Shown one piece after another: positions 41,519 to 45,948 of a stretch of DNA of 64,000 nt. Source of the DNA: Lachnospiraceae bacterium. Its GTDB lineage: Bacteria; Bacillota; Clostridia; Lachnospirales; Lachnospiraceae. Position numbers and translations under genes: made by a program. The number at the start of each line of letters is the position of its first letter. The stretch's first letter is position 1. The notes below the pieces were generated by a model. That model was given only the letters and a program-made list of their open reading frames with translations. It did no database searches and was not told the DNA's origin. The stretch is from assembly GCA_018056425.1 (NCBI GenBank), contig JAGPFR010000008.1:1-64000 (forward strand). Direction: 5' to 3'.

Positions 41519-42334
41519 TTAGAGCTTTTGGGAAGATTTTTCACAAATATGACACATATACATATCGGCTATGTCAAGGTCGGTCAAACTGTAGAGCATC
41601 CTTGCACCGGCCGCATCTTCGACCTCATTTACAACCCACTTTCCGTGATCTTTGATAACATCAACCCCGATGTAATCAGCCAGCAGGTAATCCGAGAGCT
41701 TAAGAGCCATGTCGGCAACCTCGGCCGGCGGCTCAGCTAGGGCAGCTTCTCCGCCCAGACTGAAATTACTCCTGAAATCTTTTTGGGAAGTACGGAGAAC
41801 CGAAGCAACTATTTTCCCGCCGAGTATGTACAGGCGCATATCCTGACCCGGGGTATCACACATCTTTTGGATTATCCACTCCGAAGGATTCAGCCCCCTG
41901 ATGATCTCGCGAACTTCCTCATATTTACGGGCCATAAATACCCTGTTTCCGCCATGACCCCTTCTGTGCTTTACAATATAAGGAGCCTTGAACGGGATCT
42001 CGTCTTCGGGAGTATCCCCGGGAACAGTCTCCATTACAGGCATGCCCAATTCGCGGAAAAGATCGTACTCTTCCAGTTTGTCATTTCCTATTCGAACCGT
42101 TTCCGAATTATTAAAGCTCTTGATACCCAGGCCTTCAAAATATCTTGATACCTCTTCGTCCCTGGATCTGTTAATTACAAAAACCGCTTCGGTTTCCTCA
42201 AAAGCCTGCCAGGGGGTTACCAGATCGAGCCTGATACCTTTTTCGGCTGCTTTTTCGGTTAACCGGTCTATAAACCATCTGTTTTTTTCTGCATCCGCTT
42301 CGAAATATACAAGAAGCGCTCTTTTATCTTTCAT
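41519..42334 (-). CDS. RimK-like ATP-grasp ligase, second of a tandem pair
   Basis: A 271-residue ATP-grasp protein: N-terminal pre-ATP domain (about 1-100), then KAPYIVKHRRGHGGNRVFMA (glycine-rich lid) and PSEWIIQKMCDTPGQDMRLYILGGKIVASVLRTSQKDFRSNFSLGG. The C-terminal metal site reads WVVNEVEDAAGARML, where RimK relatives usually have an ExN pattern; this one has Glu-Val-Glu-Asp. Relatives join carboxylates to amines through acyl phosphates. It overlaps the upstream paralogue by 11 bases, so the two proteins are made together. Substrate unknown; a peptide tail or small-molecule ligase are both possible. Confidence 0.8.
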   Translation of the reverse strand: MKDKRALLVYFEADAEKNRWFIDRLTEKAAEKGIRLDLVTPWQAFEETEAVFVINRSRDEEVSRYFEGLGIKSFNNSETVRIGNDKLEEYDLFRELGMPVMETVPGDTPEDEIPFKAPYIVKHRRGHGGNRVFMARKYEEVREIIRGLNPSEWIIQKMCDTPGQDMRLYILGGKIVASVLRTSQKDFRSNFSLGGEAALAEPPAEVADMALKLSDYLLADYIGVDVIKDHGKWVVNEVEDAAGARMLYSLTDLDIADMYMCHICEKSSQKL

Positions 42335-43196
42335 CTACGTGCTCTTTTATATAACTGATTATGTGTTCGGCCATATTTATGCCGGTGCATTCAAGGGTAG
42401 TTTTAAAATGCGGATTTGAGTTGACCTCGCATATGATCGGTCCCTCTTTTCCAAACAAAACGTCCACTCCGGCAAAATCCAGGCCAAGTGCTTTACATGC
42501 GGCAATTGCCAGCTCTTCCTGTTCTTTGGTCGCATCAAATCTTTTCATGCTTCCGCCGTTTGTGATATTCGAACGGAAATCATTGTCATTATATCTGTAC
42601 ATCGAGGCCACAACCCGGTCACCGACAACATTTATCCTGACGTCCCTTCCGGCGGACTCTTCTATGTATTCCTGCATTATAAAGGGATGTTCCTTAAAAG
42701 ATGCTATCAGGACTTCGGCTTCATATGAATTCTTGACCAGATGTACCTGCTGCCCGAAAGATCCCCTGTTTTCTTTGATGATCATCGGGTATCCGATTTC
42801 TTCCTCGGCTTTCCTTAAGAAAGACATATCGGTACAGCCAAAAGTCGGATATGCCTTGGGGGATAGAAATGTTTTGGGCGTTCTTATACCTTCTTCAACA
42901 AGCGCAATGGCTGTCTGGCCTTTATCATCGCAGACCTCAATACTCTGAGACGAGTTAAAAAGTCTGAGTCCGCGCTTTTCAAGGCGTGATGCAAGGAGAA
43001 TATCCTTGTCCCAGAAGATTCCGAAATCGGGAAGTTCATAATCCTCAAATCTGCTCTGAACACTGCAATTAATATCGGATGAGGTCTTCATCTCCAGCTC
43101 GACTCCGACCTTCTTTCCGGCTTCGAGAAGCAGATTATATATCTCACTGAACTTATCCCACTTAACAAATGAATTTACGATTAGCCAACCCTTCAA
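42324..43196 (-). CDS. RimK-family alpha-L-glutamate ligase-like ATP-grasp protein
   Basis: A 290-residue ATP-grasp enzyme with GYPMIIKENRGSFGQQVHLVKN (ATP lid), HPFIMQEYIEESAGRDVRINVVGDRVVASMYR, DFRSNITNGGSM and the metal site PIICEVNSNPHF. The pattern is that of RimK/LysX ligases that add amino acids to a carboxyl end. The start is TTG at 43196, eight bases after GGAAGG. No precursor peptide gene is seen near it. The pair of ligases follows a small XRE regulator by 73 bases, which may control it. Confidence 0.85.
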   Translation of the reverse strand: MKGWLIVNSFVKWDKFSEIYNLLLEAGKKVGVELEMKTSSDINCSVQSRFEDYELPDFGIFWDKDILLASRLEKRGLRLFNSSQSIEVCDDKGQTAIALVEEGIRTPKTFLSPKAYPTFGCTDMSFLRKAEEEIGYPMIIKENRGSFGQQVHLVKNSYEAEVLIASFKEHPFIMQEYIEESAGRDVRINVVGDRVVASMYRYNDNDFRSNITNGGSMKRFDATKEQEELAIAACKALGLDFAGVDVLFGKEGPIICEVNSNPHFKTTLECTGINMAEHIISYIKEHVDER

Positions 43197-43661: not shown

Positions 43662-43696
43662 AAAAAACAGCTCCCGAACCCTTGGATCCGGGAGCC
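43662..43696 (-). terminator. Rho-independent terminator after leuA-araC
   Basis: AGCTCCCG (43669-43676) pairs with CGGGAGCC (43689-43696), then a T run on the minus strand. Confidence 0.85.
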
Positions 43697-43719
43697 GCAA
43701 TATGTGAAAACCCGCTTGT

Positions 43720-45723
43720 TTACTGCTTTCTGTACTGTACAGGGGTTACTCCGTAAGTCTTCTTGAACATTCTGTTGAAATGCTCGACATTTTCGTATCC
43801 GACTTCAAGTGCGATATTTTCGATGGTCTTGGTGGTGTCCTTGAGAAGAGTTTTTGCCCTCTTGAGCTTCTCTAAACGAAGGACATCCTGGAAAGTCTCA
43901 CCGGTCTTTTCCTTAATATATTTTGACAGATAAGGTCTGGAAAGGTGGAATTCCTCAGCCATGGAATCAAGGGAGACATCCTGATAGTTTCTCTGAATAT
44001 AGGTAAGGATCTCGACAAGTCTCTCCTCACGTGCCCTGTTGATGTGCTGGTCGGAAGCAACCTTATTTACACAGCTGACGAGTGCAGCATTGGAAGCCTT
44101 GATGATATCCTCATCGACTCCGACACCCCAATAGGTCTTTCCTTCGGATACTACGCTGACATAGGAAGCCGCCTTGGAGGAACTGGTCTTGGAGATCGCA
44201 TGCTCTTCATATCCGGTCAGTTCATAATCAACTCCCAGATACAGTTTGATGGCGTTACTTACGGAGTCAAGTCTTCCGTTTCCTACGGTAACGACTTTCT
44301 GCTCTCCGCTCTTATCCTTAAAGCTTACGGATGCCTCGATTCCGCCGTTTCCGAGCTGCTTATAGTGTATCTCGGTCGCATCGAATACGGGTCTCGAGGT
44401 TACATATACATCTTCAAAGACTGAAAACATCTCGTCAGGCTTGAGCTCTTTATGCTTTCTGTCGGATACGCCCTTCATCAGGTAGCCGACTTCTTCCTTC
44501 ATCGCTGCGGGAAGGCTGAAGCCGAACTGCTGCTTAAGAACGAATGCGACGCCGCCCTTTCCGGAAGTTGAATTAATACGTATAACATCGGATTCGTACT
44601 CTCTTCCGATATCCGAGGGGTCGATGGGAATATAAGGGATATCCCATCTTACTCCGGTCTTACCTTCGGCGCGGTAATTCATACCCTTGCTGATGGCATC
44701 CTGGTGAGATCCCGAGAAAGCGGTAAATACCAGATCGCCGCCGTAAGGAGTTCTCTCATGGACCTTCATATTGGTAAATCTCTCATAAGCCTCACGGATC
44801 TTCATTATGTTGGAGAAGTCAAGTCCGCTGTCGACACCGTGGGTGATCATGTTCATGGCTACGGTTACAAGGTCAACATTACCCGTTCTTTCACCGTTTC
44901 CGAAAAGAGTACCCTCAACGCGGTCGGCTCCCGCAAGAACGCCCAGCTCTGCATCGGCTACTCCGGTTCCTCTGTCATTGTGGGGGTGTACGGAAAGTAC
45001 GACTCCTTCACGATACTTCATATTATCCGACATGTATTCGATCTGATCTGCAAAAACATGGGGCATTGCTACCTGTACGGTTGAAGGCAGATTGATTATA
45101 GCCTTCTTCTCGGGGGTGGGCTTCCATACATCCAGAACCGCATTGCATACTTCAAGAGCAAATTCGGGCTCGGTCTGTGAGAAGCTCTCCGGACTGTACT
45201 CAAACATAAAGTTTCCGTCAGTCTCATCAGCAAGCTCTTTTAACAATTTGGCTCCGTCCACCGCAATCTTCACGATCTCGGGCTTTTCTTTCTTAAATAC
45301 CTGCTCCCTCTGCTCGACGGAAGTCGAATTATACAGATGAACTATTGCCTTGGGGCATCCCTTAACGGCATCGAAGGTCTTGCGGATGATATGCTCTCTT
45401 GCCTGGGTAAGAACCTGAATGGTCACATCATCGGGAATCATGTTCTTATCTATCAGTGCTCTGATGAATTCAAACTCGGTATCGGATGATGCAGGGAATC
45501 CTACTTCGATCTCTTTAAAGCCGACATCAACGAGAAGCTTGAAAAACTCGAGTTTTACTTCCAGGCTCATCGGATCGATAAGTGCCTGGTTTCCGTCTCT
45601 TAAGTCCACGCTGCACCAGATAGGGGGCTTGGTAATCCTGTCTTTTTTAACCCAATTGTGGTTAAGAACGGGAGGCATATAATATGTAGGCCTGTATTTC
45701 TCACTGATGTTGATCTTACTCAT
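43720..45723 (-). CDS. leuA: 2-isopropylmalate synthase fused to a C-terminal AraC-type DNA-binding domain
   Basis: Residues 1 to about 553 are a complete LeuA of the long type: SVDLRDGNQ (38-46, metal Asp40/catalytic Arg42), HPHND with His246 and His248, NGERTGNVD with Asn282, and the C-terminal leucine-binding domain (about 430-553). It condenses acetyl-CoA with 2-oxoisovalerate, the first step of leucine synthesis. Residues about 565-667 are an AraC/XylS double helix-turn-helix: EEFHLSRPYLSKYIKEKTG and IALEVGYENVEHFNRMFKKTYGVTPVQYR. The frame is continuous, with normal codon use across the joint. Usual LeuA ends near residue 555. The fusion suggests an enzyme that also binds DNA; this is inference. 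The start has AAGGAG next to a 22-bp palindrome. Confidence 0.9.
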   Translation of the reverse strand: MSKINISEKYRPTYYMPPVLNHNWVKKDRITKPPIWCSVDLRDGNQALIDPMSLEVKLEFFKLLVDVGFKEIEVGFPASSDTEFEFIRALIDKNMIPDDVTIQVLTQAREHIIRKTFDAVKGCPKAIVHLYNSTSVEQREQVFKKEKPEIVKIAVDGAKLLKELADETDGNFMFEYSPESFSQTEPEFALEVCNAVLDVWKPTPEKKAIINLPSTVQVAMPHVFADQIEYMSDNMKYREGVVLSVHPHNDRGTGVADAELGVLAGADRVEGTLFGNGERTGNVDLVTVAMNMITHGVDSGLDFSNIMKIREAYERFTNMKVHERTPYGGDLVFTAFSGSHQDAISKGMNYRAEGKTGVRWDIPYIPIDPSDIGREYESDVIRINSTSGKGGVAFVLKQQFGFSLPAAMKEEVGYLMKGVSDRKHKELKPDEMFSVFEDVYVTSRPVFDATEIHYKQLGNGGIEASVSFKDKSGEQKVVTVGNGRLDSVSNAIKLYLGVDYELTGYEEHAISKTSSSKAASYVSVVSEGKTYWGVGVDEDIIKASNAALVSCVNKVASDQHINRAREERLVEILTYIQRNYQDVSLDSMAEEFHLSRPYLSKYIKEKTGETFQDVLRLEKLKRAKTLLKDTTKTIENIALEVGYENVEHFNRMFKKTYGVTPVQYRKQ

Positions 45724-45736
45724 ATTTACTCCTTCT

Positions 45737-45777: not shown

Positions 45778-45806
45778 AAAATACTCCTCTAAAATTTAAA
45801 AATCAA
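45778..45806 (-). promoter_or_regulatory. Candidate leuA promoter
   Basis: Minus strand TTGATT (45806-45801), 17-base spacer, TATTTT (45783-45778). The -10 is weak, as often seen for activator-dependent promoters. Confidence 0.45.
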
Positions 45807-45809
45807 GAG

Positions 45810-45842
45810 GTATTTTAATCTAAAGTTCAGATGTATTTTAAT
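45810..45842. repeat. Direct repeat ATTAAAATAC upstream of the leuA -35 box
   Basis: Read in the direction of leuA, ATTAAAATAC occurs at 45842-45833 and again at 45819-45810, period 23 bases. An inverted relative (GTATTTTAAAT) overlaps the -10 box at 45774-45784. Direct repeats about two helix turns apart next to the -35 box are typical of AraC-family sites; the region is A/T-rich, so chance is possible. Confidence 0.5.
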
Positions 45843-45886: not shown

Positions 45887-45924
45887 AATAAGTCAATTTC
45901 TTCTCCAAAAGAAATTGACTTATT
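45887..45924 (-). terminator. Terminator after the Smr gene
   Basis: A 16-bp perfect stem AATAAGTCAATTTCTT / AAGAAATTGACTTATT with loop CTCCAA, followed by TATTTTG on the minus strand. Confidence 0.75.
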
Positions 45925-45948
45925 TTAACATATCTTATTGATTTATCT

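Follow-up and report, generated by a model that had tools for sequence, protein, structure and literature searches.

A gene that joins leuA to an AraC-type regulator lies on the minus strand of the 64,000-nucleotide stretch of DNA analyzed here, referred to as the window. The open reading frame (43720..45723, stop included) runs unbroken on the minus strand from an ATG start at 45723 through 667 codons, with no internal stop. The encoded protein of 667 residues comprises an HMGL-like catalytic domain (residues 35-311, 44791..45621; PF00682, 250 bits), the post-catalytic IPMS_D2 domain (residues 330-397, 44533..44736; PF22615, 104 bits), the allosteric LeuA_dimer domain of leucine feedback (residues 426-555, 44059..44448; PF08502, 83 bits), a junction delimited by the Pfam boundaries and an AlphaFold2 model (residues 556-587, 43963..44058), and an AraC/XylS double helix-turn-helix (HTH; residues 588-667, 43723..43962; PF12833 and PF00165). 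All LeuA domains and the AraC/XylS domain exceed their curated Pfam cut-offs, with HTH_18 scoring 81.4 bits at residues 588-667 (cut-off 33.6) and HTH_AraC 59 bits at residues 628-666, and the protein matches NCBIfam NF002991 (2-isopropylmalate synthase) with 788 bits against a cut-off of 455. An earlier note on this DNA had read LeuA and an AraC-type HTH in one frame, a reading borne out by the 667 residues without a stop and by the scores of both parts.

In the AlphaFold2 model of the fusion (mean pLDDT 79.6, pTM 0.54), confidence is 81-88 in the HTH part and below 50 in stretches near the active site. The feedback domain closes with a helix that runs to residue 558, and the HTH part opens with one starting at 567; as modeled, the LeuA_dimer domain is intact and stands about ten residues from the HTH part. 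A fold search retrieved Mycobacterium tuberculosis LeuA (PDB 1SR9 and 3FIG) as the nearest solved enzyme, the leucine-bound 3FIG being approximately 45% identical to the fusion, while the C-terminus resembles solved AraC-type domains such as those of XylR and YesN. R42, D43, H246, H248, N282, and H340, which we take to be active-site and metal residues by analogy with the M. tuberculosis enzyme, are invariant in 50 fusions and are the same letters in 1SR9. The 50 aligned fusion proteins likewise show no variation in the motifs of the catalytic and feedback domains or in the core residues of the HTH. The fusion is the sole LeuA found in its own assembly, which is 90.8% complete.

A ribosome-binding site, AGAAGGAG, was read at 45729..45736 on the minus strand. 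Right after the stop codon lies a terminator hairpin with a T-run (43667..43698, minus strand; 14 pairs, folding z -4.75), in a region where the count of terminator-like sites is not above that of shuffles; given this hairpin, the gene is probably transcribed alone. Membership of the window's leuA in a leuCDB operon was ruled out by the terminator directly 3′ of it, leuC being located on another contig. Across the retrieved loci, leuC lies downstream of leuA in 0 of 79 fusion genes and in at least 8 of 38 HTH-less genes, counts that are lower bounds as many loci cover only 1.5 kb downstream. Two adjacent overlapping frames occupy 41519-43196 on the minus strand, downstream of leuA, and the counterpart of the upstream one in locus L064 is a RimK-family ATP-grasp ligase. 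On the other side of the gene, an inverted repeat, AAGTCAATTTCTTCTCC...GAAATTGACTT (approximately 45887-45925), lies immediately upstream of the candidate operator described below; it is kept in several genus members and is perhaps the terminator of the upstream gene.

The fusion is widespread in the family. A homologue search for both domains in one protein, as suggested in the earlier note, recovered it in at least 68 of 299 sampled family genomes, in which the match reaches residue 665-667 without a stop; a LeuA match was found in 270 of the 299, among the matches listed. Rather than the separate leuA and araC genes that the same note had contemplated for close relatives, 28 of 31 genus genomes carry LeuA and HTH in one frame, 27 of them full-length or nearly so. 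The fusion of G007 begins at a contig end yet reads through into the HTH, and the exceptions are G023 (split over two frames), G028 (residues 1-370 only), and G013 (no LeuA found). Outside the family, fusions were seen in three (G538, G402, and G540) of 391 genomes sampled from the class. Records bearing the fusion include Dorea sp. 5-2, Faecalicatena contorta ET55, Sporofaciens musculi, and Lachnospiraceae bacterium P6A3 and AC2028. Four genomes (G052, G538, G402, and G138) encode a second, unfused LeuA, 49-53% identical to that of the window, beside the fused one. In eight own-genus comparisons, dN of the HTH is 0.010-0.159 against a dS of 0.70-2.78, several dS values being near saturation, and the domain appears to be under purifying selection; it changes about four times faster than the catalytic part in five more distant own-genus pairs. 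HTH-only relatives are mostly long proteins, membrane-bound by appearance, and one light scan of viral contigs with the HTH found no relative that would point to a viral source.

Reading of leuA upstream regions revealed a repeated element composed of two TTAAAATnnATCA half-sites in tandem, a direct repeat 23 bp apart that ends at the −35. This putative operator was modeled as a 37-column matrix with two TTAAAATnnATCA half-sites and a threshold of 12 bits, which 59 of 84 distinct leuA upstreams and 0 of 1680 shuffled sequences exceed; the fusion upstreams supplied its training sequences, which partly accounts for the high rate among them. A uniform procedure was applied to 123 distinct leuA genes, with identical proteins counted once and upstreams shorter than 300 bp left out (2 of 81 fusion rows, leaving 79). 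The operator was found upstream of 75 of 79 fusion genes, within 700 bp in 72 and 714-825 bp upstream, before a T-box, in L040, L075, and L078, while the fusion upstreams L013, L016, L021, and L068 hold weaker sites (9.6, 6.3, 4.7, and −1.8 bits). It was found at 0 of 38 HTH-less leuA genes. Four of the 42 genes with fewer than 641 residues do have it, each HTH-bearing or cut: leuA and the HTH are split by a frame change in L061 and L096, an HTH frame stands directly behind the leuA stop in L214, and L210 is cut at a contig end inside the HTH. The co-occurrence of operator and HTH is the best evidence that the enzyme may regulate its own gene. In L096 (7600-7990) and L214, LeuA and the HTH adjoin in different reading frames and the operator is retained, an arrangement that could reflect fission, an assembly error, or frameshifting in translation.

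The window's own candidate operator (45806..45842, minus strand) is a weak example with 18.2 bits in the matrix, comprising two TTAAAATnnATC-like half-sites, 23 bp apart, as a direct repeat at about 45829-45842 and 45806-45819. It is not significant with the sequence-only model R1 (6.2 bits, E 1.4). With 150 of 1707 candidates scored, an R1 scan of the own genome gave a best E of 0.24, with 0 of 10 matches at leuA; R1 is too weak for own-genome scans.

Pattern searches extended the comparison to whole genomes. A degenerate operator pattern allowing up to two mismatches, with the reversed pattern as a control, had a match ahead of the fusion leuA in 20 of 20 fusion genomes, many of which belong to the training set. 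It also matched in 3 of 14 non-fusion genomes, each time with two mismatches. The reversed pattern gave 10 matches in the same 34 genomes, and many of the additional two-mismatch matches are thus background. In two further genome sets, 28 leuA-proximal sites have 27-letter sequences absent from all training sequences. The degenerate pattern misses 6 of 19 HTH-bearing genomes (G289, G321, G164, G052, G185, and G231), has no match in 11 of 35 genomes of another set, and in G245 matches solely at leuC. A pattern specific to the genus, which tolerated up to three mismatches, matched once and only once in 13 of 31 genus genomes, every time upstream of the fusion leuA, and its reversed form had 0 matches in the 31; in the window, it matches 45806-45841 with two mismatches. 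Of the 18 genomes without it, 14 carry fusions 74-79% identical to the window's; G007 has no upstream DNA, no LeuA was found in G013, and G026 and G027, with fusions 97 and 91% identical to the window's, have degenerate operator sites without a genus-pattern match.

Promoter anatomy was compared at 76 loci. The best −10 match, usually an extended TGnTAnnAT, lies 22-23 bp after the operator in 55 of them, so that the second half-site borders or overlaps the −35, which is often a poor hexamer. Such a layout, with a half-site at the −35, is that of AraC-type class II activation. For the window, a −35 TTGATT touching the second half-site (45801..45806, minus strand; read from sequence) and, 17 bp after it, a −10 TATTTT (45778..45783, minus strand; chosen by eye at the same offset as in relatives) are proposed; both are absent from the list of a generic promoter scan, and the automatic −10 pick for this locus is another site. 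A second, weaker operator exceeds the 99th percentile of shuffles in 32 of the 76 loci. In 19 of these 32, chiefly Dorea-like (e.g., L104, L073, and L069), this second copy is displaced 73-75 bp downstream, which keeps it in helical phase with the first at a distance of about seven turns and places it over the likely transcription start, where it could limit or repress. It is absent from most of the other loci, the window's included.

Many leuA genes of these bacteria are preceded by a T-box leader, an RNA that senses uncharged tRNA. The T-box motif occurs at 32 of 38 HTH-less leuA genes and at 12 of 79 fusion genes, each of the latter with an operator upstream as well; these counts come from a regular expression that misses variants such as TGGTAACGCG, and Rfam was run on 37 loci. 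RF00230 is absent at gathering score from the 64-kb window and from L001, and T-box control of the window's gene was ruled out on that ground. Operator and T-box leader stand in tandem upstream of leuA in L030, L042, L044, L087, L095, and L240, upstream of a transporter gene in L309, and upstream of ilvB in L246 and L312; judged from sequence, such tandems appear to be two sensors in series, one protein and one RNA.

On a quick maximum-likelihood tree of the LeuA part, in which many forks are open, the HTH changes seven times, a pattern that would fit a single gain and about six losses if L214 is scored as one of them, with L061, L096, and L210 left out of the count. An independent-pairs test on this tree had only 3 pairs on starred branches, too few for significance. 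Six genomes (G219, G137, G215, G103, G114, and G142) encode a LeuA that groups among the fusions yet is HTH-less, and none of the six has an operator at leuA. In a search of the whole genomes, the pattern was absent from five of them, while the sixth has a single two-mismatch site that lies within an open reading frame. A T-box motif is present at leuA in four of the six; Rfam confirms the T-box in L213, L219, and L221 and not in L208, which was also scanned. In L219, a Clostridiales-1 RNA (RF01699; 5722-5885) is located between the T-box and the HTH-less leuA.

Away from leuA, three pattern searches yielded 27 matches in HTH-bearing genomes, 8 of which precede leucine or branched-chain genes; of the 9 with at most one mismatch, 6 are at leu/ilv genes. 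The operator precedes leuC, with zero mismatches, in G236, G504, G545, and G667, all of one genus, and lies 82-84 bp from the start in the three that were measured. It also precedes leuC in G245, leuB in G047, ilvH-ilvC in G072, and ilvB-ilvN-ilvE in G220, where a T-box lies in between. NCBIfam confirmed the first gene for 7 of the 8 sites; leuC of G504 was identified by its N-terminus, the same as in G236, and ilvN and ilvE of G220 and ilvC of G072 were assigned by reading their sequences. Two-mismatch sites occur at a bile-acid-symporter-like transporter with a T-box (G220) and at glutamate dehydrogenase (G260), and the remaining matches lie inside genes or at unrelated genes, e.g., a nitroreductase-like gene (G326) and an efflux gene (G225). 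Altogether, 19 of the 27 are not assigned to leu/ilv genes, including three that were unread (G311, G151, and G098). Among 23 fusion genomes examined, only G236 has an operator at leuC, from which the common target appears to be leuA itself, and none was seen at leuC of the own genome and two genus relatives. The model TIGR00170, which matched 1 of 31 genomes, describes a LeuC type other than that of these bacteria; a protein query located leuC-like genes in 30 of 31, those of G261, G167, and G102 at 42-45% identity only.

We consider it likely that the fusion is a trigger enzyme, a LeuA dimer that would autoregulate leuA as a leucine-relieved activator, with its feedback domain serving as the effector domain of an AraC-type regulator. 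The enzyme part and the HTH reside in one chain, and the operator goes with the HTH. In the proposed mechanism, the C-terminal LeuA_dimer domain would double as dimerization and effector domain, and the two HTH domains of the dimer would bind the two directly repeated half-sites, 23 bp apart, that end at the −35 of its own leuA promoter, and would make contact with RNA polymerase in the manner of class II activators. Under leucine shortage, the dimer would activate its own gene and, in some lineages, leuC, leuB, ilvB-ilvN-ilvE, or ilvH-ilvC; leucine on the feedback domain would both inhibit the enzyme and weaken activation. The earlier note had proposed an enzyme that reads its end product and controls transcription. 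The transcriptional part of that proposal gains from a conserved operator whose presence tracks the HTH throughout the family, strong comparative evidence for the predicted DNA targeting, while leucine as the signal that switches DNA binding is inferred from domain identity and the leu/ilv operator sites, and activation rather than repression from promoter geometry. We lean, with less assurance, toward a broader version, in which one leucine site would set both enzyme inhibition and DNA binding, the protein sensor displaced or joined the T-box, and a small branched-chain regulon arose in some genera.

The sign of control could be the reverse: leucine-bound LeuA-HTH might shut leuA off at the operator, with leucine as co-repressor. 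End-product repression is the commoner logic for biosynthetic genes, and the second, weaker site 73-75 bp downstream, over the likely start in chiefly Dorea-like loci, would serve it. We nevertheless hold autorepression to be unlikely, since the main site abuts the −35 and keeps a constant distance to an extended −10, a geometry that, with the many poor −35s, suits activation, and since most other loci, including that of the window, have no second site. Similarly doubtful is a signal other than leucine, namely the catalytic state, with 2-ketoisovalerate, acetyl-CoA, or 2-isopropylmalate in the active site. An enzyme sensing substrate or product could couple flux to transcription, and 2-isopropylmalate is the co-activator of yeast Leu3, which offers a precedent; the HTH, however, is joined directly to the leucine-feedback domain and not to the catalytic domain. 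Far less probable is an HTH that is a passenger without a regulatory role, with the upstream repeat serving some other regulator. These genomes are rich in AraC-type HTH domains (the own genome has eight more weak matches), and another regulator with the same operator is conceivable, but the invariance of the HTH core residues in 50 fusions and the missing operator at all 38 HTH-less leuA genes and in the six lineages that lost the HTH argue against it. An assembly or sequencing error joining leuA to a neighboring araC gene, which the fragmented source assembly (84 contigs) might invite, is refuted by the recurrence of the same single frame in dozens of independent assemblies across genus, family, and named records.

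A full-text literature search, with most subscription journals outside its reach, returned no description of a LeuA-AraC fusion, and neither "AraC" nor "fusion" appears in PMC9026213. The earlier note includes neither the operator nor the relation to the T-box leader nor the wide distribution. In this gut and rumen lineage, a transcription factor appears to have recruited as its effector domain the allosteric domain of a textbook feedback-inhibited enzyme, together with an operator. Ordinarily an enzyme is inhibited by feedback and its gene controlled through two distinct devices, each with a receptor of its own; if the favored leucine-relieved activator is correct, one receptor would be common to enzyme activity and gene expression, the fusion would be a leucine-responsive switch of natural origin, and it would account for the way in which many Lachnospiraceae may regulate leuA in the absence of a T-box. 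The gain, loss, and T-box coexistence would further constitute an evolutionary experiment in how RNA and protein sensors replace each other.

Compared with LeuA itself (NF002991; M. tuberculosis LeuA), the fusion has the same enzyme and feedback domains, above the NCBIfam cut-off, but carries approximately 100 extra residues that form the AraC-type HTH, as well as an operator at its promoter. With AraC/XylS regulators such as AraC, XylS, MelR, and RhaS, it shares the plan of an effector and dimerization domain, a short linker, and a C-terminal double HTH. Direct-repeat half-sites at the −35 are typical of AraC promoters and recur in the fusion operator, the window's own site being weak; the difference is that the effector domain here is a whole metabolic enzyme with an allosteric domain, and that the half-sites are spaced by 23 bp. 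Trigger enzymes are known from PutA, BirA, NadR, and Escherichia coli Ada, the last of which has an AraC-type HTH and activates its own gene. These proteins combine an enzyme and a transcription regulator in one chain and are autoregulated, as proposed for the fusion, which is distinct from them as a feedback-inhibited amino-acid enzyme whose end-product site adjoins the HTH. Lastly, the T-box leader (RF00230) of leuA has the same presumed job of tuning leuA to leucine supply, but whereas the T-box is an RNA that senses uncharged tRNA, the fusion would perform it as a protein sensor.
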